Source: Chloroflexota bacterium (GTDB lineage: Bacteria; Chloroflexota; Anaerolineae; Anaerolineales; Anaerolineaceae). From it: a stretch of 34,184 bases of DNA. Location of the stretch: assembly GCA_021848775.1 (NCBI GenBank), contig JAJZTR010000005.1, positions 1-34,184 on the forward strand, written 5' to 3'. Below the pieces are notes generated by a model. It searched no databases, was not told where the DNA came from, and saw only the letters and a program-made list of their open reading frames with translations. Below are positions 3,950 to 25,942 of this stretch, in pieces. The first letter of the stretch is position 1; each line of letters opens with the position of its first letter. The translations under genes and the position numbers were made by a program.

Positions 3950-4166
3950 TGGTTTTAACTGTTGTCCACCTGGCGTACTACTTCGCCCAGCGCAGAGACC
4001 GCGTCCTTGTCGTTGATCTCGACACTCAGGGGCATATAGCCCTGAGCTACGACCAGCTGCGCGGCGATGCCCTGCGAGACATTTTGCTCCAACGCAGGAG
4101 CATCAGCGACGTACGCATCAAAGCCCGCCCGAACCTCTGGATTGTCCCCAACAGCAAATCTCTCGT
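3949..4166 (+). pseudogene. ParA/Soj-type ATPase, N-terminal fragment lacking the P-loop
   Basis: The frame reads VVHLAYYFAQRRDRVLVVDL, then DTQGH, and later RPNLWIVPNSKSL. This matches the part of ParA-family partition ATPases just after the deviant Walker A loop, including the VDLDxQG motif and the PNLWxVPS-like strand. The KGGVGKTT loop that should come directly before is missing and is replaced by the palindrome at 3921-3949. On the other side the frame runs straight into the tRNA-like repeat at 4167. Only about 73 ParA-like residues remain of the roughly 250 usual. It is therefore a remnant, most simply of an integrated plasmid or conjugative element. It could not bind ATP. Confidence 0.7.
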
Positions 4167-4225
4167 GGTGACTCACCAGGGACTCGAATATCGTCCCCTA
4201 AAGGGGACCCTGAACCCAGGATGTA
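4167..4225 (-). repeat. tRNA-3'-end-like repeat, copy R1
   Basis: Read on the minus strand it contains GGGTTCAGGG, a small hairpin TCCCC-TTTA-GGGGA, then TTCGAGTCCCTGGTGAGTCA and CC. The outer CAGGG/CCCTG stem, the TTCGAGT loop and the acceptor-like tail are those of a tRNA T-arm and 3' end, but 19 bases including the hairpin are inserted before TTCGAGT. Its first 42 plus-strand bases match copy R4 at 25838 with one difference. Confidence 0.75.
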
Positions 4226-4287
4226 GGTGACTCACCAGGGACTCGAACGATAACCCCCTGCGGGGGACTATGAGCCCAACCTATTTT
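4226..4287 (-). repeat. tRNA-3'-end-like repeat, copy R2
   Basis: This is a second tandem unit directly after R1. It begins with the same GGTGACTCACCAGGGACTCG (plus strand) and carries a variant inner hairpin CCCCC-TGC-GGGGG. The outer stem is less complete than in R1. Confidence 0.7.
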
Positions 4288-4320
4288 GGTGACTCACCCG
4301 GGATGCGAATATTATTCCCC
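4288..4320 (-). repeat. tRNA-3'-end-like repeat, copy R3 (truncated)
   Basis: This is a third, diverged and shortened unit (plus strand GGTGACTCACCCGGGATGCG). It overlaps the stop codon of the RNB ribonuclease gene at 4312-4314, so that gene's 3' end lies within the array. Confidence 0.55.
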
Positions 4321-7723: not shown

Positions 7724-8095
7724 CTAGCCGTGCACAATACTTGGATTACGGGCTTCTTGCTTCATCCGTCTGTTATGCGTGCGCAGTCCTTTGGATAACC
7801 GTTTCTTTTCCGGTTTAACCGCCTTTTCCGGTTTGACCGCCATTTCGGGTTTGACAACCTTTTCTGGTTTGACTGACTCTTCCAGCTTGACCGCCTTTTC
7901 CGGTTTGACCAGCTTTTCCGGTTTGACTTCTTTTTCCAGTTTGACCGGCTTTTCCAGTTTGACCGGCTTTTCCGGTTTTACTGACTTTTCCAGTTTGATC
8001 GGCTTTTCCGGTTTGACTGACTTATCGGGTTTGACTGCCTTTTCCGATTTGACCAGCTTTTCCGGTTTGACTGGTGTTACTTTTTTATCTGCCAT
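7724..8095 (-). CDS. Lys-rich hexapeptide-repeat protein (VKPEKx repeats)
   Basis: A 123-residue protein made of a short leader (MADKKVTP), about 15 tandem hexapeptides of the type VKPEKx (variants VKLEK, VKSEK, VKPDK), and a basic tail with RLSKGLRTHNRRMKQEAR. The repeats alternate Lys and Glu with regular Pro. The tail is Arg/Lys-rich and could bind nucleic acid, somewhat like histone H1-type tails. That function is inference. ATG is preceded by AAGAAGGA. The gene starts 11 bases after the eRF1-like gene ends, so the two form an operon under promoter A at 8552-8606. The DNA is an 18-bp tandem repeat and should vary in copy number between strains. Confidence 0.7.
   Translation of the reverse strand: MADKKVTPVKPEKLVKSEKAVKPDKSVKPEKPIKLEKSVKPEKPVKLEKPVKLEKEVKPEKLVKPEKAVKLEESVKPEKVVKPEMAVKPEKAVKPEKKRLSKGLRTHNRRMKQEARNPSIVHG
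7797..8078. repeat. 18-bp tandem repeat within the Lys-rich protein gene
   Basis: About 15 imperfect 18-bp units of the type CTTTTCCGGTTTGACCGC (plus strand), each encoding one VKPEKx hexapeptide. The variants differ by whole codons at the Pro/Leu and last positions. Confidence 0.85.
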
Positions 8096-8106: not shown

Positions 8107-8511
8107 TTATCTTAGAAAATGATCTCGGACTTTGGCTGAAATTTGTTGATCCGTCATCTTATCAACGGTGTCAACTCCAACGATTATTCCTTCGAGGCCT
8201 CCACGGATAAGGTGATTTTTGAATTCCACTTTTGCCTCTCCAGGACCAATTATCCAAATGGCTTCAGCACCACGAATAAAGGAGATGATCCCATCGTAAT
8301 AATTACCCAGGTGATCCCTAAACTGCCGATCTCGTATATCCTCCGCGGTTGAACCCTTGGGAGCATTGGGACCTTTCGTCCGGGTACCCGTTGAAAACCG
8401 CACATGTTTCTCCAGATTCGATCGGATTTCACGGATGACTTCGACCTCATTTTCAATGGTCACGATCACAGCTTTGCGATGATCAATCCACAATCCTACT
8501 TCCCTTTTCAT
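8107..8511 (-). CDS. eRF1/pelota-domain-like small protein (host-attachment-like fold)
   Basis: A 134-residue protein starting MKREVGLWIDHRKAVIV, with RDRQFRDHLGNYYDGII and WIIGPGEAKVEFKNHL in the middle and TVDKMTDQQISAKVRDHF at the end. This pattern belongs to a family of small bacterial proteins related to eRF1/pelota domain 3. Its function is not established; links to ribosome-associated stress responses are suggestions only. I chose the second ATG (8511), which has AGGGAAGG six bases upstream. The ATG at 8529 lacks a good site. Promoter A would start transcription near 8545, giving a leader of about 34 bases. It is the first gene of an operon with the Lys-rich repeat protein. Confidence 0.72.
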   Translation of the reverse strand: MKREVGLWIDHRKAVIVTIENEVEVIREIRSNLEKHVRFSTGTRTKGPNAPKGSTAEDIRDRQFRDHLGNYYDGIISFIRGAEAIWIIGPGEAKVEFKNHLIRGGLEGIIVGVDTVDKMTDQQISAKVRDHFLR

Positions 8512-8551
8512 AAGGACCTTCCCTTCCATCGATAGTTCTCACCCTATTACC

Positions 8552-8606
8552 ATCCTATGCGAAAGGGGCTATTCATGTCCCTAATTAAATCTATAAAAAC
8601 CCTATC
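8552..8606 (-). promoter_or_regulatory. Conserved promoter element, site A
   Basis: Read on the minus strand: -35-like GGGACA (8576-8581), an 18-bp spacer containing AATAGCCCC, and -10-like TAGGAT (8552-8557). Upstream TAG motifs (ATAG at about 8591 and 8602) are spaced about 11 bp. GGTAAT follows the -10. It drives the eRF1-like gene and the Lys-rich gene. Confidence 0.72.
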
Positions 8607-8897
8607 AGAATCTTATTCCGGTTCACCCTCGTGATAAACCTCCCGTTTGATCGTTGTCTTTTTAGGCTGAAAAGATCTCCCAGGTTGTTTTTAAAATCAA
8701 GTTGACCATATCTGAATTTAATCGGTTCAAGAGGATAGAAAAGACCTGGTCAGGGTACCTGGTCAGGTCTTTTGCCGCCGGAAAACTATTCGTTCTTTGT
8801 TGTCGGGCTAATTCGCCAGCCCGCCGGTCGCGGCGACATTTTCCTTTTGTCTGAGCATCACGTCCATTGGATCACCGCAAGGATCGAGATTGCTAAT
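8607..8897. other. Intergenic region between operons
   Basis: About 290 bases lie between site A and the end of the acidic protein gene. The region holds the hairpin at 8739-8772. I see no gene or other repeat in it. Confidence 0.4.
8739..8772 (-). terminator. Hairpin terminator, nested inverted repeat
   Basis: Outer arms AAAAGACCTG and CAGGTCTTTT enclose a second small stem CAGG-GTA-CCTG. On the minus strand TTTTCTATCCTCTT follows. It suits the end of the operon 9820 to 8898, and it is symmetrical enough to work in both directions. Confidence 0.65.
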
Positions 8898-9260
8898 CTA
8901 GCTCCCCCAGGTCGTTTCCGCTAACGATTCGTCCGCAAGCGGCATTGAACGGACAACTTCTTCAACAGGCTCCTCATTGACAATCAATTCGTCCATCGGG
9001 CCAACTGCAGCAATGGTCCCGCCCATCGGAATCTCCTGGTTAGGAGTCTCAAACATCTGAATCTCATCCGGAAGAGGTCCACTCAGCGGTTCCACGGATG
9101 CAACGGTCCCACCCATGGGCGTATCGTTGATAAGAGACTCATCCACCGGGGTTCTGTCGGCAAAAGTATCCGATTTTAATGTCGGGGGGTTGGTGTCTTT
9201 ATCGATTTCCCCAATGATTTCTGAGGTTTCGTCAAGGTTTCTGTAAACCTGGTCTGTCAT
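8898..9260 (-). CDS. Acidic hypothetical protein with two PMGGT repeats
   Basis: A 120-residue, strongly acidic and probably disordered protein. It contains two copies of a short motif, PMGGTVASVEPL and PMGGTIAAVGPM, about 30 residues apart, with Glu/Asp-rich stretches between. It has no signal peptide, membrane segment or recognised domain. Its ATG overlaps the stop of the preceding gene (ATGA), so it is translationally coupled to the membrane-anchored protein 9257-9820. The hairpin at 8739-8772 ends the operon and site B at 9909 starts it. I cannot assign a function. Confidence 0.62.
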   Translation of the reverse strand: MTDQVYRNLDETSEIIGEIDKDTNPPTLKSDTFADRTPVDESLINDTPMGGTVASVEPLSGPLPDEIQMFETPNQEIPMGGTIAAVGPMDELIVNEEPVEEVVRSMPLADESLAETTWGS

Positions 9261-9820
9261 TTCAAATTCTCCTTTACGGCATCTACCTCTTTTCCGAGGA
9301 GTTCCTCAAACAGCGACCGATAATGGATCAAAGCCTGCCTTAAATCTTCAGTATTTGCCTGTTGCTGCTCATTTTTTAGTGCTATTTCGCGAGCAGCGCG
9401 GTAGTTGCTTACTAATCCAGGATAGTTGACTGAGATATCGGCCGCACGCTGCTCAAAATCTGAGACTGGATAGGCGCGAATCTGCATAACTTCCATGATC
9501 AGGCGGTCGGCATTACCAATTGCCTGACCTGGTTCGTCGACAAATTTTGATTGGATTGCAGCCCAATTCGCCAGATAACGCTCACGGTCAGCGGCAGACA
9601 GTGGTTTGATATTCAAACCCGCGACATGCTTCTGGCGTTCATCCAGCTCTGCTTGGGCTTTCTTTTTATTGCCCAAAGCCTGCACTGTGCGATCATATTC
9701 AGTCCCAAAACGGTCTTGGAGCTTTTTCGAACGGTTCCGGCTTGAAAAAGATGAAGCCAATAGCAAGCCAACGATCACCAGCACCGCGACAGCGATGACG
9801 ATTATCAATGTAGAATCCAC
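9257..9820 (-). CDS. Membrane-anchored hypothetical protein with helical cytoplasmic or extracytoplasmic domain
   Basis: A 187-residue protein with one N-terminal membrane segment (about residues 4-24). The remainder is helical, charged and rich in Gln, Glu and Lys, and contains LSAADRERYLANWAAIQSKF and a coiled-coil-like end. Similar short proteins with this layout are common in bacterial genomes as proteins of unknown function. The start is GTG at 9820, chosen for the strong AAGGAGG six bases upstream. It is the first gene of the operon under promoter B, with a leader of about 80 bases. Its stop overlaps the start of the acidic protein gene, so the two products may act together. Confidence 0.72.
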   Translation of the reverse strand: MDSTLIIVIAVAVLVIVGLLLASSFSSRNRSKKLQDRFGTEYDRTVQALGNKKKAQAELDERQKHVAGLNIKPLSAADRERYLANWAAIQSKFVDEPGQAIGNADRLIMEVMQIRAYPVSDFEQRAADISVNYPGLVSNYRAAREIALKNEQQQANTEDLRQALIHYRSLFEELLGKEVDAVKENLK

Positions 9821-9908
9821 AAAAACCTCCTTGATTATTGGTGAAAAACCCCTTTGCCATACTCACCGTACAAAGGGGATCTTCGTTATTGACAAACTTA
9901 CAACTACC

Positions 9909-9964
9909 ATAGTACAAAACCACGGCTATCTTTGTCCCCAAAAATACCTATATTATTCCTATTA
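9909..9964 (-). promoter_or_regulatory. Conserved promoter element, site B
   Basis: Minus strand: GGGACA (9933-9938), an 18-bp spacer with AGATAGCC, and TACTAT (9909-9914). Upstream are ATATAGG and AATAGG, about 11 bp apart, and GGTAGT follows the -10. It drives 9820-8898. Confidence 0.7.
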
Positions 9965-10196
9965 AATGTCAGCAAGAAAAAATCCTATCAGCCTGAAATT
10001 CATTGCTTCTCCAGGGTTCCGCGCCAGGAATTTTTATTTCCCCATCACCGTTCCACTATTGAATTTTCTGGAACGGTTTAATCGTTTTCAACACAGAGCA
10101 ATAAAATTATTGCCTGAGTGCGGTCAGCGACAGGCAATTACCATTGGTCAGACGCCTACATTAATGAGCCGCTTTCCAATATACCATTGGACAGAT
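9965..10196. other. Intergenic region between rhomboid gene and site B
   Basis: About 230 bases with no credible gene. It contains the possible terminator at 10109-10138. The rest shows no recognisable structure. Confidence 0.4.
10109..10138 (-). terminator. Possible terminator of the rhomboid gene
   Basis: An 8-bp inverted repeat (ATTGCCTG/CAGGCAAT) encloses a 14-base loop. On the minus strand it is followed by AATAATTTTATT. The stem is short for its loop, so the call is moderate. Confidence 0.45.
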
Positions 10197-12343: not shown

Positions 12344-12856
12344 TCAGGTCTCGAAATATGTACGAAGCTCCCAGGCCATCTTTTCATGTTGAACCAGGAT
12401 TTCCACTAAAAATTGGCGTGTGACTTCGTCTCCATACTCTTCCGAACATTTTTTGGCGCTCTCGCGCAAGCTACGGATTGCGACCTCATGCGCTGCCAAA
12501 AGTTCCTTAATATCAGGGGCATCACCATGAAGATCACCCCACTTGAAGTTGGCGAAAAATTTCTGCAGTCTGTCAACGGCAATTTCGCCCAGCATTCGGA
12601 CCCGCTCAGTGAGCTTTTCTAAAATAAGGTTGAGCTGCCCAGAGTGGGAAGAAAGCAAGCCTCGCTGCTCAACAAAATCCTTCCCCCTCAGGTTCCAATG
12701 GGCAAAGCGGGTATTAATGGTTAGTCCGGTTTCAAGGGGTAGCAGCTTGTTGAGGATTTCTACAACAGCTCGGCGATCATCGCCTTCCAACCCTATGTTC
12801 GGTTGGAGATCAACCTGCAGCATTCTGTTGGTTAGCTCTTTGCGACTCTGTCCCAT
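12344..12856 (-). CDS. Dps-like ferritin protein with altered ferroxidase site
   Basis: A 170-residue protein of the Dps/ferritin-like family. It keeps the first ferroxidase His (FAHWNLRG) and the Glu of TERVRMLGE. The second His of the usual LHxLFE is replaced (QRGLLS in this position), and the Asp before AER is Glu. Iron oxidation is therefore doubtful, while DNA-binding or cage functions could remain. ATG at 12856 is chosen: AAAGGA lies 6 bases upstream, and site C places transcription start near 12887, so the ATG at 12889 would hardly be transcribed. Compare the canonical paralogue at 17828-18409. Confidence 0.82.
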   Translation of the reverse strand: MGQSRKELTNRMLQVDLQPNIGLEGDDRRAVVEILNKLLPLETGLTINTRFAHWNLRGKDFVEQRGLLSSHSGQLNLILEKLTERVRMLGEIAVDRLQKFFANFKWGDLHGDAPDIKELLAAHEVAIRSLRESAKKCSEEYGDEVTRQFLVEILVQHEKMAWELRTYFET

Positions 12857-12893
12857 GGAAATCCTTTCGCCCGATAGCTTTGACTGCATACCT

Positions 12894-12948
12894 ATCCTAT
12901 TTGAAAAGGGCTATCGAAGTCCCTAACACGATCTAAAAAATATCTAAA
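12894..12948 (-). promoter_or_regulatory. Conserved promoter element, site C
   Basis: Minus strand: GGGACT (12918-12923), an 18-bp spacer with CGATAGCCC, and TAGGAT (12894-12899). Upstream TAGA motifs lie about 11 bp apart. It drives the first Dps gene and directly abuts the terminator at 12958-12980. Confidence 0.74.
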
Positions 12949-12957
12949 CAAAAAATA

Positions 12958-17827: not shown

Positions 17828-18409
17828 CTATGAGGAAAGGCTCGTAATGTCCGCTGGTAGGTGGGGCATTACACCCAATTTATCGATGGCGACTGGTTCA
17901 ATCTCGAGGTAGGAACGCAGCATCCAGGCCATCTTTTCATGCAGGCGCATAACACTTACGAGCAATTCGAATGTGCCTTCGTCCTCGTACTCCTCATTGC
18001 ATTTTCTGGCATCCTCCCGTAAAAAGCGGATTGCAGCCTCATGATCGGCTAAAAGGATCATGATTTTTGGGACGCTGCCTGGTTGTTCCGCTAATCGCGA
18101 GAATTGGATAAATTCCTGGAGGCTTCCAATGGCAATCCCGCCCAGCATCCGCGACCGCTCTGCAATCTCGTCTGAAATTTCGTTCAATTGTTTATATTGG
18201 GAATCAAATAAGATATGCAGCTCTAAGAAGCCGCTACCACTCACGTTCCAATGGGCGTTCCGGGTCTTTTGGGAGAGTACAGCCTCATTGGCCAGTGTAT
18301 TGTTGAGAATATCCACAACCGAATGACGGACTTCGCTATCCAGACCGATATTTGGCTGGATTTCAACCTGTAAATTCGTTTTGTGGCCATCGTTACGATT
18401 AGGTTCCAT
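17828..18409 (-). CDS. dps: Dps family DNA-binding ferritin-like protein
   Basis: A 193-residue Dps protein with a canonical ferroxidase site: His in NAHWNVSG, His and Asp in LHILFD, and Asp and Glu in SDEIAERSRMLGG. Dps proteins form 12-subunit cages that store iron, remove hydrogen peroxide and bind DNA in stress. The N-terminal extension (about 20 residues, with Arg, Lys and Asn) could contact DNA. ATG at 18409 is chosen because of AAAGGAAAG just upstream. The GTG at 18442 coincides with the transcription start predicted from site D. The gene leads an operon with the small protein at 17567. Confidence 0.9.
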   Translation of the reverse strand: MEPNRNDGHKTNLQVEIQPNIGLDSEVRHSVVDILNNTLANEAVLSQKTRNAHWNVSGSGFLELHILFDSQYKQLNEISDEIAERSRMLGGIAIGSLQEFIQFSRLAEQPGSVPKIMILLADHEAAIRFLREDARKCNEEYEDEGTFELLVSVMRLHEKMAWMLRSYLEIEPVAIDKLGVMPHLPADITSLSS

Positions 18410-18448
18410 TTGCTTTCCTTTCAATAGATGGTTTAATGCCACAATAAC

Positions 18449-18504
18449 ATCCTATTAGAAAAGGGCTATCGACGTCCCTAATACAACCTATATAACTTCT
18501 ATTA
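18449..18504 (-). promoter_or_regulatory. Conserved promoter element, site D
   Basis: Minus strand: GGGACG (18473-18478), an 18-bp spacer with CGATAGCCC, and TAGGAT (18449-18454). Upstream are ATATAGG and AATAG, 11 bp apart, and GTTATT follows. It drives the canonical Dps gene. It is nearly identical to site C from TTAGGGAC through TAGGAT. Confidence 0.76.
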
Positions 18505-18602
18505 AATTCATTACTGCATGGGTCGGTGAATTATTGAAAAGCCTCGAATTTAATAACTTAGTAAAAAGTTGTTCATCCCAGAAGTTACTCGAGCCCGCGG
18601 AA

Positions 18603-19397
18603 TTATGGTTGTGAATTCGATGGCTCTTCGGTACTAATTGTCGCAAAAACGACGGTGTGGTGATCGAACTCGCCGTTCACGTATCTTCCAGCGCAGGTTA
18701 TGAGAGTTAGGTGAGAAAGACCGTCCAGTGCTGGCTGTGGTCCTGTGCCTTCAACTATTCCTGGACCGTAAATCTTTGAAAGGACAGTTGGATCGGTAGA
18801 CTCTTGGATGGAGTAAACCTTAATTTGATCGACAATGAAGCGAATATTGAGTGTGGAATTCTTGACATGAACTATGATCGCGTCACCGGGAGAAAGGTTC
18901 TTTAGGTTGGCAAAGATCTCAGGATTGCCGAGCGGGTCGGTGACGTGCCCTGCAATGGTAGCCGTGCCTGACTCACCCGGTATGCCACCGCCGCGGTACC
19001 AAAATGCCGTGTGCCAGACCGGATCGCCAATTGGACCTTTAGGCGCATCCATTACATTGTCCGCAGTGAGACCCACGCCAAGCACCGGGGCATTGACATT
19101 AAGTACAGGAATCTGAAGCTCGAGCGGCACGTCCACAGGTCCAGATCTCAGGTCAAGGTTTAAATCATAGGAAGAGCCGAGGATGAAGAGCGTGGGTGTC
19201 GGTTCAATGGTTGGTTCGGCTGTTGGTTGAATTGTCGGTTGTGCTGTCGGCTGGATCGTCACTGATAACAAAGAAGACAGGGAGGGCAAAGGGAGCGCCT
19301 TCCCTGTCTCTAAATTTCCACATCCTGCCAGCAATATTACAATTGCGAGGATAGCAGTAAGCCAACCGAGCGAGATGCGGTCTGAGTGATCCATCAT
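18603..19397 (-). CDS. Sortase, predicted lipoprotein
   Basis: A 264-residue sortase-family transpeptidase. The catalytic Cys is in LTLITCAGRY (about 235) and the His is in TIAGHVTDP (about 151). The N-terminus (from 19397) has a hydrophobic stretch ending in LLAGC, a good lipobox with Cys about 26. A PT-rich spacer (QPTIQPTAEPTIEPTPT) follows before the beta-barrel domain, so a lipid anchor is likely; sortases normally use an uncleaved helix. Where an Arg is expected before the last strand, the sequence reads FDHHTVVFA, so the catalytic Arg may be replaced. The start is chosen 22 bases after the DUF3494 gene ends. The ribosome binding site is weak, which suggests coupling. Confidence 0.85.
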   Translation of the reverse strand: MMDHSDRISLGWLTAILAIVILLAGCGNLETGKALPLPSLSSLLSVTIQPTAQPTIQPTAEPTIEPTPTLFILGSSYDLNLDLRSGPVDVPLELQIPVLNVNAPVLGVGLTADNVMDAPKGPIGDPVWHTAFWYRGGGIPGESGTATIAGHVTDPLGNPEIFANLKNLSPGDAIIVHVKNSTLNIRFIVDQIKVYSIQESTDPTVLSKIYGPGIVEGTGPQPALDGLSHLTLITCAGRYVNGEFDHHTVVFATISTEEPSNSQP

Positions 19398-19419
19398 TGC
19401 TCGCGCTACGATTGCCTGA

Positions 19420-20337
19420 TTACTTTGACAGGTAATCGCGGCGCATTGATCGTAAGCCATAGAATAAAGCGACCGCGCTAGCGCCAATTAGGATTACCAG
19501 AATCCAAGGGGAGCTGCCATCCCGAATGGGCCCACCGCCTGTGCTTGGTAGCCCGGCGACAACTGGCAAAAGCGTGGCAGTTGCCTGTGTATTTTCCGAT
19601 GTAGCCGCAGGTGTTTCAGTGCTCGGGGTCGGTTCTTGCGCCAGGCAGCCCGAACCAGTGATGGTGTTGGAATCCAGTGTTACTGCACCCGTTTGCGCCA
19701 GGGCTCGACCATTCAAGCTTGCACCCGTCTGCAGGCTGATGGACGTGAAAGCAAGAATATTTCCTATGAACGAAGTGCCGGTACCGATCGTCGCAGAGCT
19801 GACCACCCGCCACCACACGTTGCAAGGGTCGCCACCCACCACAGATGAACCAGACGATGTGGTAAGAGCAGCTGCTGACTTGAAAATCCAGACCCCTGAA
19901 CCACTGAGGGTGAGTACCCCTGACAGCGCAAAGGCGTCCGCACAATAGACGCCCGGTACCAGGTTTTCGCCAGCAAGATCCTTGGTACCTGGATAGGTCG
20001 TGTCACAGCTTTGATCGAGCGAGGTGAAGGCAGCGGTAGAATCAGCCTGAGCCTGTGCCGCGTTTGCATCCGCAGAATGGAGCGTACCTGGGGGACCAAC
20101 TGTGCCCGGGGGGAACCCTGTCACAGCAGAACCGGGACTCACGCCAAGATTCCCAGGCATGATCGTCGGACCCGTATTGGTCACTGTCTCACCCGCCAGA
20201 ACAGAGTAGGTCCCTGCCGCGCCCAAGGTCGGCGAAGTGGCTGCTAAGGAGCTTGCAATCACATTTGTAAACACTCCTGCCATAGAAAGTGACAGGACCA
20301 GCATAACTGAAATTGCCAATAACATTCTTTTTTGCAT
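19420..20337 (-). CDS. DUF3494 (ice-binding-like) surface protein with LPSTG sorting signal
   Basis: A 305-residue exported protein. It has a signal peptide (about 1-29), then a DUF3494 / ice-binding-like domain (about 30-225) with NLGVSPGSAVTGFPPGTV, LTPGVYC-like LVPGVYCADAFALSG, and SFIGNILAFTSISLQTGAS. A Thr/Ala/Pro-rich linker follows. The C-terminal sorting signal is LPSTG (263-267), a hydrophobic helix, then a basic tail with RRDYLSK. Sortase should therefore link it to the cell wall. DUF3494 proteins include ice-binding adhesins but many have other surface roles. ATG at 20337 follows AGGAGG at 9 bases. It forms an operon with the sortase and is driven by site E. Confidence 0.88.
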   Translation of the reverse strand: MQKRMLLAISVMLVLSLSMAGVFTNVIASSLAATSPTLGAAGTYSVLAGETVTNTGPTIMPGNLGVSPGSAVTGFPPGTVGPPGTLHSADANAAQAQADSTAAFTSLDQSCDTTYPGTKDLAGENLVPGVYCADAFALSGVLTLSGSGVWIFKSAAALTTSSGSSVVGGDPCNVWWRVVSSATIGTGTSFIGNILAFTSISLQTGASLNGRALAQTGAVTLDSNTITGSGCLAQEPTPSTETPAATSENTQATATLLPVVAGLPSTGGGPIRDGSSPWILVILIGASAVALFYGLRSMRRDYLSK

Positions 20338-20424
20338 TTTATACGGCCTCCTACAAATTTCATCCAACCATCAGATGGTAAAAAGGCATACATTTCCAAC
20401 GAGAAAATGCTTTGCGCCAATACC

Positions 20425-20482
20425 ATCGTAATTGAAGGGGGCTATCAACGTCCCTAATACAGCCTATTAAATTCCTATTAAA
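20425..20482 (-). promoter_or_regulatory. Conserved promoter element, site E
   Basis: Minus strand: GGGACG (20449-20454), an 18-bp spacer with TGATAGCCC, and TACGAT (20425-20430). Upstream AATAGG occurs twice, about 11 bp apart, and GGTATT follows. It drives the DUF3494-sortase operon with a leader of about 80 bases. Confidence 0.74.
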
Positions 20483-20522
20483 TAATATCTACCTAAGTCA
20501 ACAAAATCTTCAGGGAAAAACC

Positions 20523-21206
20523 TTAATATATTTTCTTCGAGTGCAGATCGTAGCCCATTCCAGGGACCGTCTCGATTAGTGCGCCATATTCCCCCATTTT
20601 TTTGCGCAGACGGCCAAGATATGTATGTAAATAGTGGTTTGATCCACGATATTCCGAACCCCAGACCTCAGCGATCAACTCATCGTGCGTCACGATGGAG
20701 TCCAGGTGACGGGCAAGCTCAGCCAAAATGGCATATTCTGTTTTGGTCAGATGCAAATCCTTATCGGCAATGAAGACGCGGCGCTCTGCCAGGTCAATGC
20801 GAAAATCGCCAATCTCTATCTTTGTCTCAGATATTTTTGCGGGGACATAAGACCGGCGCAGGAAAGCGCGTACCCGCGCCAGTAATTCTTCCTGCCCAAA
20901 CGGTTTGGTGACGTAGTCATCCGCGCCGGCATCCAGGGCAGCAACTTTGAGGTCTTCTTCCAAACGCGCGCTCAATATGATGATGGGCACATCCGAACGT
21001 GCCCGGATCCAGGCACAAATATCGACCCCCGAAAGTCCTGGCAGCAGCAGGTCAAGTAGAACCAGGTCCACAGGGACTTCCTGAAATAAAGCGATTGCCT
21101 GGTGGCTATCCCCAGCTTCACTGACCGTATATCCACGTTTCACCAGGTTGACCCGCACTAATTTGCGAATACTCGGGTCGTCTTCAACAATTAATATGTT
21201 GCCCAT
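20523..21206 (-). CDS. OmpR/PhoB-family response regulator
   Basis: A 227-residue regulator. The receiver domain has the acidic pair in VEDD, phospho-acceptor Asp about 52 (VLLDLLLPG) and Lys about 101 (VTKPFG). The winged-helix DNA-binding domain (about 130-225) contains LTKTEYAILAELARH and GSNHYLHTYLGRLRKKM. The overall form is KdpE/PhoB-like. ATG at 21206 follows GAGGGG; the longer frame is not supported. It begins 4 bases after the histidine kinase ends, so the two form one operon and a cognate pair. Regulators of this class bind direct repeats at 11-bp steps, the pattern seen upstream in sites A-F, but regulation of those sites is only inferred. Confidence 0.92.
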   Translation of the reverse strand: MGNILIVEDDPSIRKLVRVNLVKRGYTVSEAGDSHQAIALFQEVPVDLVLLDLLLPGLSGVDICAWIRARSDVPIIILSARLEEDLKVAALDAGADDYVTKPFGQEELLARVRAFLRRSYVPAKISETKIEIGDFRIDLAERRVFIADKDLHLTKTEYAILAELARHLDSIVTHDELIAEVWGSEYRGSNHYLHTYLGRLRKKMGEYGALIETVPGMGYDLHSKKIY

Positions 21207-21210
21207 AGAT

Positions 21211-22914
21211 CTACCCCTCAGTTTCCGGATTTCTTTCCTGGATCGACATCGGCACGAGTGGAATCGTAAAACATATCGTTGCCCCAGGTGCAGCTTTTTT
21301 CTTAATCCAGATACGGCCGCCATGGGCTTCGACCAATCCTTTGCAGATCGCCAATCCCAATCCAGCGCCTTGCGCTGCGCTGTTTTCCATGTTTACACCC
21401 CGACGAAACGCCTCGAATACTTTTTTGTATTCGGCCGGTTGAATACCAGGTCCCTGATCGCTGACATTAATCTGCAAAAAATCTTTTCGCACATTGGCTG
21501 AGACGTTGATTTCACTGCCTTTTGGAGCGTAGGTCGAGGCATTCCGGACCAGATTGACAAGTACCTGACCGATCCGCTTTGTGTCTGCTAAAACCAGCGG
21601 CAGCCTGGCTGGCCAGTGAAAGGTTAAGGTATGCCCGTTTGTCAAGATATGCAATTGCGATGAGGTATCCTCAATAATTTCGTGAATGGACTGCGGTTTC
21701 ATTAATATTGGCAGCCTGCCGGCTTCCAGCCGCGATAGATCCAGAAGATGATCTATCAGCTCCTGCAGCCGGTCAGCTTCCTTTTGAATCGTCATAACGA
21801 AATCATGCTGCTCATTTTGATCCCAGGAGACATCCTCAGCCAGCATTGTGGTCGTAAAGCCGATTATGGATGTCAAAGGAGTACGCAGTTCATGTGAAAT
21901 CATCGCCAGGAATTGAGTCTTGATCTCATTGGCTCGCTCAGCCTCATGTCGCAATTCTTCTTCGACCTTAAGTAATTTGAGGTTGTGAAGGGTCACTGCA
22001 GCCTGGTCAACAAGGATATTAAGATGACGGAGTCCGATATGATCGATGGGATGATCATGTTTGAAATAGATCAACAGGCAGCCGAGCCAGTTCCCGGATG
22101 CAACCAACGGAAGGATTGCCAGAGTTTGGATTTGTGCTTCCGCGAGAGTATCGTATATCAGTGGTTGTAGTCGTGGATCGGATTTGTTTCCATTGATTAC
22201 TACAGCCCGATTGGCGTTGACGAGCTCCCAAAAAGCAGTCTCTTCATACAGGTTGGATTCCCCAGGCCAGGGTGATAGATTCGGGCTGGACAGCCAGGCA
22301 GCAACCACCTCCAACCCGCCCGCAGGCCCGACTTTGGGATCATCAAAGAAAAGCACTGTCGCCCGTTCGGCTGGACGCAGTTCATGGGCAGACATCAAGA
22401 TTTTAAGAACTGCTTCAGGTCTATGTGCCAGGCTCATTCTTCGGCTAAGGTCAAACTGTTCACGCGTGCGGTTCAGGGTTTTCCGCAGCGCCAGCTCGAC
22501 ATCCTTCTGGTCCGTGATGTCCATGGCAATGGTAAACAAAAAGTCCGGTTCACCGACTTCATTTTGGACTAAAAAAGTACGCGCAGACATCCAGCGTGTG
22601 GTGCCGTCTGGACGGATAATACGATAAGCCTGTGAGAATGGTTGATCTGAATTGTGCTGCCTGGCAATCATTACCTGCAATCGGTCTTCCGGGTGAACAC
22701 TTTCGATCAGAATCTGAGGATCGGCATACAGGCTCTGGCAGGATCGTCCCCAAACCGTCGCGAAGGCCGGATTTACATAAAGAATATGCTCGGAGTTAAG
22801 ATCGAACACCCAGACCACCTGGTCAATATTTAGCAAAATTTGCTTGAAGGAAGGATTTCCCTCTAACAAATGTCTTATGTTCATTCGAGATTTGTTGTCG
22901 TTAATGGCTGACAT
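21211..22914 (-). CDS. PAS-GAF sensor histidine kinase
   Basis: A 567-residue soluble histidine kinase: PAS (about 20-140), GAF (about 160-315), HisKA with phospho-His about 341 (MISHELRTPLTSIIGF), and an HATPase domain with VLVNLVRNASTYAP, DQGPGIQP and GAGLGLAICKGLVEAHGG. All nucleotide-binding boxes are present, so it should be active. It has no membrane helix; the signal is cytoplasmic. It is directly upstream of its likely partner regulator. The region upstream (22915-23077) carries no obvious conserved promoter element. Confidence 0.93.
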   Translation of the reverse strand: MSAINDNKSRMNIRHLLEGNPSFKQILLNIDQVVWVFDLNSEHILYVNPAFATVWGRSCQSLYADPQILIESVHPEDRLQVMIARQHNSDQPFSQAYRIIRPDGTTRWMSARTFLVQNEVGEPDFLFTIAMDITDQKDVELALRKTLNRTREQFDLSRRMSLAHRPEAVLKILMSAHELRPAERATVLFFDDPKVGPAGGLEVVAAWLSSPNLSPWPGESNLYEETAFWELVNANRAVVINGNKSDPRLQPLIYDTLAEAQIQTLAILPLVASGNWLGCLLIYFKHDHPIDHIGLRHLNILVDQAAVTLHNLKLLKVEEELRHEAERANEIKTQFLAMISHELRTPLTSIIGFTTTMLAEDVSWDQNEQHDFVMTIQKEADRLQELIDHLLDLSRLEAGRLPILMKPQSIHEIIEDTSSQLHILTNGHTLTFHWPARLPLVLADTKRIGQVLVNLVRNASTYAPKGSEINVSANVRKDFLQINVSDQGPGIQPAEYKKVFEAFRRGVNMENSAAQGAGLGLAICKGLVEAHGGRIWIKKKAAPGATICFTIPLVPMSIQERNPETEG

Positions 22915-23338: not shown

Positions 23339-23409
23339 ACTCGAAATTCAACCAATTCCCAAAAACCAGCTCACGAAGGTTTAATTTTGGAATGACCTTT
23401 CAGAAAATG

Positions 23410-23463
23410 ATAGTTCTTTTATAGGTTTTTGCAGGGACATTGATAGCCTCCTATTCGTAGAAT
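23410..23463 (+). promoter_or_regulatory. Conserved promoter element, site F
   Basis: Plus strand: GGGACA (23434-23439), an 18-bp spacer with TTGATAGCC, and TAGAAT (23458-23463). Upstream ATAG motifs at 23410 and 23421 are 11 bp apart. It is the only copy on the plus strand and points towards the USP pseudogene. Confidence 0.7.
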
Positions 23464-23494
23464 AATTGCTGGGCTGTTATCGGATGGAGAACGG

Positions 23495-23793: not shown

Positions 23794-24880
23794 ATGTTTA
23801 ACCGAATCCATGTACCGCTGGATGGATCGACGCTCGCGGAGCGAGCGATTCCTCATGCTGAACAATTTGCCCACATTTTTGGATCGAGCATTGTGCTCTT
23901 GCAGGTCCTCGATCCAACTTCCTTTCACGAAAATCCCAGTGCCGTAGATCCATTGAGTTAGCAGATCCGCAAAGCGGAGGCTGACATGTACATGCAGGGG
24001 ATTGCTGACCGGATTCGTGTGGAGCTGCAAGAAAACCTAAATGATGCTCAGGACGCGCAAGACAAAGGTAAAGAAGCTGTAAAAACGAGTGTCGAATATT
24101 CAATCCGCGAAGGGAAAACGGAGGAAACCATTGTTAATTTTGCCCACAGCGAAGCCATTGACCTGGTGGTAATCAGTACCCATGGATCGGGCGGTTTAAG
24201 CCGCTGGAACATCAGCAGTGTTACGCAAAAAGTGATCAACCTGGTCTATTTGCCTGTGCTGGTTGTACGCGCTTATTGCCAACCTGCAACCTCCGGAGCC
24301 AGGGTGCATTACGGCCGCATCCTGCTGCCGGTTGACAGTTCGCGCCGCGCGGAGATTTCACTTGCCGCAGGAATTGCACTGGCAGGAGGAGAAATACACA
24401 GCGGATTTTTGTCGGAAGGAAATGATCGCTCGATACGCCGTCCCGCACTCCTAAAGTCGCAATCCCAGACAACGCTCGTCCTCACCGCAGTCATCAAGCC
24501 GCCCGAAATCCCCATCCCTGAACCCTACCCCATTGAGATCGAGCAACTCTCCAGCCAATTGATGGATGTCAGCCGTGTGGCGGTTACCAGTTACCTGAAC
24601 AAAATGAAAGTGCGATTACCTGTTGAATGCGAAAGCCGTGTCCTTGAAAACACCAATGTATCCTCAGCAATCCAGGAACTGGCCGACCAGGAGGAAGATA
24701 TCGACCTGGTCGTGTTGTGCGCCCATGGTTACCGGGCAGTTCGCCTGGCCGTATGGAAGTAATGCTCGCAATTACATAGAACATGGCACCAAACCCGTTC
24801 TGGTTATCCAGGATGTGCCGCGTTCCCAGGTTCAGCCGACGGCAGCGGAAATTGCCGCTGAAAAATCGGGGGGTCGCTAA
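23794..24880 (+). pseudogene. Tandem universal stress protein, disrupted by amber codon and frameshift
   Basis: Two USP domains can be read. The first starts MFNRIHVPLDGSTLAERAIP after GTAGGAGGAAATTCC. It is broken at codon 56 by TAG (23959-23961, context DPLS*QIRKAEA, where relatives usually have a sense codon). The frame then continues without change through VVISTHGSGGLSR to the second domain (RILLPVDSSRRAEISLAAG). Near 24732, after CAHGY, the frame shifts: the continuation TGQFAWPYGSNARNYIEHGT and the end ...EKSGGR lie in the +1 frame, as if two bases of an ACAC had been lost. Two independent lesions show a pseudogene. Site F upstream suggests it once belonged to the same regulon as the Dps genes. 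Confidence 0.82.
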
Positions 24881-25777: not shown

Positions 25778-25837
25778 AAGTACTGAAATCCCTTAACCTG
25801 CAAAAATAGCCTGCGGGAAATCTAAAACTACATAAGA

Positions 25838-25896
25838 GTGACTCACCAGGGACTCGAATATCATCCCCTAAAGGGGACCGTGACCCATAATTTGTA
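25838..25896 (-). repeat. tRNA-3'-end-like repeat, copy R4
   Basis: Same orientation and 59-bp length as R1 at 4167; the first 42 plus-strand bases differ at one position. It holds the TCCCC-TAAA-GGGGA hairpin and directly abuts the partial tRNA-Lys. Together with R1 it makes a direct repeat about 21.7 kb apart. Confidence 0.75.
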
Positions 25897-25942
25897 GGTG
25901 ACAAACCAGGGACTCGAACCCTGAACCCATTGATTAAGAGTC
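25897..25942 (-). pseudogene. 3' half of tRNA-Lys(CTT), likely integration (att) scar
   Basis: The minus strand reads GACTCTTAATCAATGGGTTC, then AGGGTTCGAGTCCCTGG and TTTGTCACC. This gives the anticodon loop CTCTTAA, the 3' anticodon strand TCAAT, the variable loop, a perfect CAGGG/CCCTG T-stem with TTCGAGT loop, and the 3' acceptor strand. Upstream of the anticodon loop the sequence (TTTCTTGCC) cannot form the 5' anticodon strand ATTGA, and no D-arm or 5' acceptor is present. A break in the anticodon loop is typical of tyrosine-recombinase integration sites. Confidence 0.75.

Follow-up and report, generated by a model that had tools for sequence, protein, structure and literature searches.

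The window analysed in the present study, i.e. the whole stretch of 34,184 nt, constitutes contig C52 in the 2.73-Mb genome of a Chloroflexota (Anaerolineae) bacterium and probably encodes a stress-regulated surface-display unit, in which a protein of the ice-binding type (DUF3494) is paired with a dedicated sortase. The gene order, the domains and motifs, the conserved pairing of the two genes and a common promoter element are all read from the sequence. More tentatively, the pair may exemplify a display cassette of the Anaerolineae, made up of an ice-binding LPXTG protein and a lipoprotein-type sortase that dispenses with the catalytic arginine, which is fused into one protein in some lineages and in two genera has been drawn into an undescribed Dps stress regulon under a Pho-like two-component system; we lean slightly away from this wider reading.

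The DUF3494 gene lies on the minus strand at 19420–20337, with an ATG start codon at 20335–20337, an AGGAGG sequence upstream and the stop codon at 19420–19422. The ORF matches the Pfam family Ice_binding (PF11999) over the full length of the profile (positions 1–208, E 3e-47, 161 bits against a gathering score of 28.7) and is the sole PF11999 match in the genome. The initial annotation had described a surface protein that ends in LPSTG, a hydrophobic helix and a basic tail, and the translation and the structure model agree with that description: the 305-residue protein has a C-terminal Pro/Thr linker followed by the LPSTG motif (19537–19551, minus strand), a predicted helix at residues 278–303 and an RRDYLSK tail. 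With an N-terminal export signal, recognized by eye, it has the features of an LPXTG wall-anchored protein, and most of the DUF3494 proteins that are paired with a sortase have kept LP-x-TGG-x-P or a close variant. A scan of the genome with the LPXTG_anchor model did not discriminate, since the model matched in all 14 control genomes as well. By DUF3494 sequence, the relatives of the protein are mostly from Anaerolineales/Chloroflexota metagenome genomes.

A structure model of the DUF3494 protein, built from 15 sequences, had a mean pLDDT of 82, with values above 90 across most of the domain. It has the β-solenoid fold, superimposing on AnpIBP (7bwy) with a Z score of 33.1 and an rmsd of 1.1 over 194 aligned residues (44% identity) and on EfcIBP with a Z score of 32.2. 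AnpIBP binds ice via its B-face, and the substitutions S153Y and T156Y drop its activity to 17% (PMC7277481). The AnpIBP stretch S153-S-A-T156-L-G158 corresponds to SSATIG in the window protein, whose counterpart of S153 does not vary among the 15 relatives. The displayed β-solenoid therefore most likely binds ice or the ice–water interface, as judged from the fold of the model and the ice-face residues, and on these grounds ice binding is better supported than a general role in adhesion.

The next gene had been called a sortase in the initial annotation, and the domain and fold searches bear this out. It occupies 18603–19397 on the minus strand and begins 22 nt downstream of the DUF3494 gene; the most likely start is the ATG at 19395–19397, with the stop at 18603, a TTG at 19487 being judged unlikely as a start. 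The product matches PF04203 (E 4e-16, 59 bits against a cut-off of 26.6), and its model, of moderate confidence (pLDDT 72), gives Z scores of 14–16 with SrtC, SrtA and SrtF structures, reaching 16 with SrtC1. The catalytic histidine (18945–18947) and cysteine (18693–18695) are both present. The S. aureus enzyme SrtA requires a His–Cys–Arg triad (PMC5148588); in the window sortase the arginine position (residue 277 of the 294-aa ORF) is a histidine, encoded by CAC at 18657–18659 on the minus strand. Across 16 orthologues this position is histidine in eight, the present genome included, arginine in seven and phenylalanine in one, and on the sortase tree, which has modest support, some five changes are needed among the three states. 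The sequence also contains a lipobox cysteine (LAGC, 19320–19322, minus strand), and with a cysteine at the same place in 13 of the 16 orthologues (it is missing in G003, G172 and G180) the enzyme is predicted to be a lipoprotein in those 13. Such a lipid anchor would place the sortase on the same face of the membrane as the usual N-terminal membrane helix. A limited literature search combining sortase and lipobox returned no lipoprotein sortase in the titles or abstracts of the matches listed.

Conservation of the gene pair had been proposed as one check on the initial reading, and its absence as a refuting result; the pair proved to be conserved. Among the 147 genomes of the family to which this genome belongs, 16 have a DUF3494 gene and 12 have a sortase of the window type, which lies directly downstream of DUF3494 in all 12. 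In the class as a whole, sampled evenly with 396 genomes, five more contained a close relative of the sortase: in three (G479, G376 and G280, the first two loci being the same as L012 and L019) it lies within approx. 1.5 kb of DUF3494, and in the other two (G278:C116 and G378:C54, loci L162 and L163) DUF3494 and sortase are joined in a single open frame (546 and 657 residues, respectively). These frames run from DUF3494 through a Pro/Thr linker and a VPATGG or VPGTGG motif, with no membrane helix after the motif, into the sortase. G052 (L140) and G147 (L141) also have single frames that lead from DUF3494 through a Pro/Thr linker and an LPXTG-like motif, here to a terminal sortase-like domain that belongs to a different subfamily; a comparable long frame is present in G170. 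Gene fusion is classical evidence of a functional link, and the dedication of the sortase to DUF3494, as the initial annotation had it, is well supported by the family-wide adjacency and the fusions elsewhere. On Saccharibacteria contigs (L016 and L022), DUF3494 proteins with LPNTG ends adjoin sortases of another type. A limited literature search for DUF3494 together with sortase found no paper.

Upstream of the pair, at 20423–20483 on the minus strand, lies site E (matrix score 69.7), in which four direct repeats of 11 bp are followed by a −10-like box. That this site precedes the DUF3494 and sortase genes was correctly noted at the outset, and its 28-nt core recurs before Dps2 at 18464–18491, where none is expected by chance. 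The same element is found on the minus strand before Dps2 (18447–18507, score 71.1), Dps1 (12892–12952, 65.8), ORF 9257–9820 (9907–9967, 54.4) and ORF 8107–8529 (8550–8610, 66.2), and on the plus strand upstream of an interrupted Usp (universal stress protein) gene (23405–23465, 53.4), so that the window holds six copies, each before its own unit; taken as a 71-nt element, there are five copies plus one inverted. The single stress-type operon originally envisaged is thus not what we find: DUF3494 and the sortase make up a two-gene unit, Dps2 has a site of its own, and the arrangement is a regulon of separate units. The consensus reads.tTTtATAGa.aTTTTATAGgTT.TaTTaGGGACATaGATAGC, then 10 nt, then TA..AT, and within the 61-nt element a G is conserved at positions 9, 20, 31 and 42 and TAnnAT at 54–59. 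The autocorrelation of information rises only slightly at lag 11 (0.12), so that it is on these conserved columns that the 11-bp period rests. A Pho box is laid out as direct 11-bp repeats followed by a −10 box, and the present element, in which the repeats likewise end shortly before a −10 box, has a similar layout.

An iterated matrix, applied to 561 kb of island loci, identified 89 distinct sites, against none in 219 kb of control loci or in 1.68 Mb of sequence from three island shuffles; since the island loci had served to train the matrix, these zero counts in the controls are the independent part of the evidence. In this genome the site core, with up to two mismatches allowed, has six occurrences in the window and two outside it, and the latter two do not score with the full matrix. 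Two weak matches on contig C49 were discarded because they fail the full matrix, as do the pattern matches in G143, G154 and G157 and one of the two in G184, all genomes without the regulator described below.

Directly upstream of DUF3494, on the minus strand, are the genes for a response regulator of the PhoB/OmpR type (20523–21323, PF00072 and PF00486), which is the candidate binder of the element, and for a PAS-GAF histidine kinase (21211–22914), its presumed partner, whose domains would allow an internal cue. The regulator scores 195.8 bits against the NCBIfam PhoB model TIGR02154, below the cut-off of 296.2; we suggest that it works like PhoB and make no claim that it is the PhoB phosphate regulator. 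Its orthologues (69–91% identity) occur in 26 of the 147 family genomes, this one included, and a strict site pattern occurs in 23, with 18 genomes having both (Fisher p 7e-13, a value inflated by the shared descent of the island, with which regulator and sites may have been inherited together; p 0.21 for a reversed-pattern control). With the matrix, sites were found in all 26 regulator genomes, the matrix having been used on these and the pattern search on the genomes without the regulator. Some of the sites are on contigs other than that of the regulator in G013, G160, G182, G183, G185 and G186. One clear genome, G007, a 300-contig assembly, has sites and no regulator that we could find, and outside the family the regulator of G519 (62% identity) has a weak site of 28 bits just downstream. 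The adjacent PhoB-like regulator apparently runs the element, as far as co-occurrence and promoter architecture indicate.

Co-regulation of the DUF3494 protein with Dps was a further part of the initial proposal. Dps2 (17828–18442, minus strand), a Dps-type ferritin-like protein, and Dps1 (12344–12889, minus strand) both match PF00210, the match of Dps2 to the Dps model being below cut-off, and the true start of Dps1 is probably further in, since its listed start runs into the region of the promoter element. The proposal stands in so far as one promoter element is common to DUF3494 and Dps, but this control is limited to two genera: in six genomes of genera g1 and g8 (G000, G003, G168, G169, G172 and G180) the pair is part of the island and is preceded by a site, either close by or up to approx. 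0.5 kb away. In G007 the contig ends within DUF3494; G182 and G183 have the regulator, with the pair on another contig without a site; and G141, G146 and G162 have the pair without regulator or site. The pair is thus more widespread than the site in the genomes searched, which suggests an independent cassette that the stress regulator took on in two genera. The stress island is found again, with reshuffled content, in many genera of the family (L068/L069, L070, L122, L133 and L137); its recurring members are the kinase–regulator pair, Dps copies, YGGT, CBS, an AI-2E transporter pair, a rhomboid and ORFs 8107 and 9257.

Some other features of the window were also noted. The Usp gene at 23794–24762 has an in-frame TAG at 23959–23961, where G003 has TGG, as well as a frameshift towards the 3′ end, and is either a decayed gene or the product of a sequence error in this MAG. 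A gene for a repetitive protein, made of 18-bp tandem repeats (7724–8095), lies in the unit behind a regulon site and is kept in G003. At 4157–4319 and 25827–25928, repeats approx. 60 bases apart contain GTGACTCACCAGGGACTCGAA, similar on the opposite strand to the T-arm of a tRNA; ARAGORN found no tRNA in the window, including at the GTGACTCACCAGGGACTCGAA repeats, and an Rfam scan of the window gave no matches.

Three alternative explanations bear on different parts of this reading. The DUF3494 domain could be a surface adhesin or a structural wall protein with a ligand other than ice, a role that surface display would suit; DUF3494 members also occur in many genomes without a known cold habitat. 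We regard this as rather unlikely in view of the very close fold, the 42–45% identity with proven ice binders and the retained ice-face serine and threonine residues; several related genomes also come, judging by their record titles, from cold or peat sites (Chersky, fen and palsa), which is anecdotal. For the sortase, the histidine in place of arginine raises the prospect that the enzyme of this genome is inactive or crippled, in which case the DUF3494 protein would remain in the membrane or owe its anchoring to either of the two further sortases of the genome. The sister genomes G003 and G007 have sortases with arginine, and two other sortases of this genome, on contigs C4 and C107, retain it. 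However, the reading frame is intact, seven further orthologues have the same histidine, and the G146 and G141 sortases, both with histidine, differ by a dN of 0.03 and a dS of 0.20, which indicates purifying selection on the gene in this form and led us to reject a pseudogene status for the sortase group. An inactive enzyme is accordingly improbable in our estimate, and anchoring of DUF3494 by its neighbour is plausible; with histidine at the arginine position, processing of the LPSTG protein by this sortase is not secure.

The third alternative concerns the element, which might be bound by another factor or be an unusual sigma-factor promoter (GGGACA approx. 18 bp before TAnnAT), with the regulator merely a co-traveller on the island. 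Few parts of the element are as well conserved as GGGAC, and the island is inherited as a block, yet four direct repeats with an 11-bp period suit a PhoB-type regulator, the presence of sites follows the regulator even when the two are on different contigs, and among the window genes compared no other DNA-binding gene recurs with the sites. We therefore consider this third alternative unlikely.

Taking the stress-regulated display unit as the preferred reading, we propose that the PAS/GAF kinase reads a signal and passes it to the PhoB-like regulator, which would bind the four 11-bp repeats just upstream of the −10 box and switch on the DUF3494–sortase unit, both Dps genes and three other units. 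The DUF3494 protein would be secreted, with its C-terminal helix retaining it in the membrane, and the dedicated sortase, placed on the external face of the membrane via its N-terminal lipid, would cleave it at LPSTG and attach it to the cell wall, where it may protect or tether the cell at ice. This offers a testable case of an ice-binding protein that is displayed by a dedicated wall-anchoring enzyme rather than freely secreted. A group of sortases that are mostly lipid-anchored and often have histidine for arginine would challenge the standard His–Cys–Arg rule, and the promoter element, for which we have 89 sites and can name a candidate regulator, marks out a stress regulon of mostly uncultured bacteria that has apparently not been described before.

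Among known systems, the DUF3494 protein has the whole β-solenoid domain in common with the type 1 DUF3494 ice-binding proteins AnpIBP (7bwx), EfcIBP (6eio) and that of Ca. Cryosericum (9lhn), with 42–45% identity to the first two over approx. 195 residues and the ice-face Ser/Thr of AnpIBP conserved; unlike all three, it has an LPXTG sorting signal and its own sortase. The ice adhesin of Marinomonas primoryensis, of the MpIBP type, likewise displays an ice-binding domain on the cell surface, but it is a giant repeat protein with another ice-binding fold and no sortase anchoring. The window sortase has the β-barrel with catalytic histidine and cysteine of the class F enzymes (NF033748; SrtF, 5uus) and of the sortase A/C fold, and class F is its best NCBIfam match (E 2e-23), although at 82.5 bits it has about half of the cut-off score of 166, is predicted to be a lipoprotein instead of having an N-terminal membrane helix and, unlike class F, has the arginine replaced by histidine in half of its orthologues. 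Finally, the regulatory part resembles PhoB/PhoR and the Pho box in its PhoB-like regulator and in 11-bp direct repeats approx. 10 bp before the −10 box, whereas the repeat sequence is another one (TTTATAGG) and is present four times, the targets are Dps, Usp and DUF3494 genes, and the kinase is of the PAS-GAF type.
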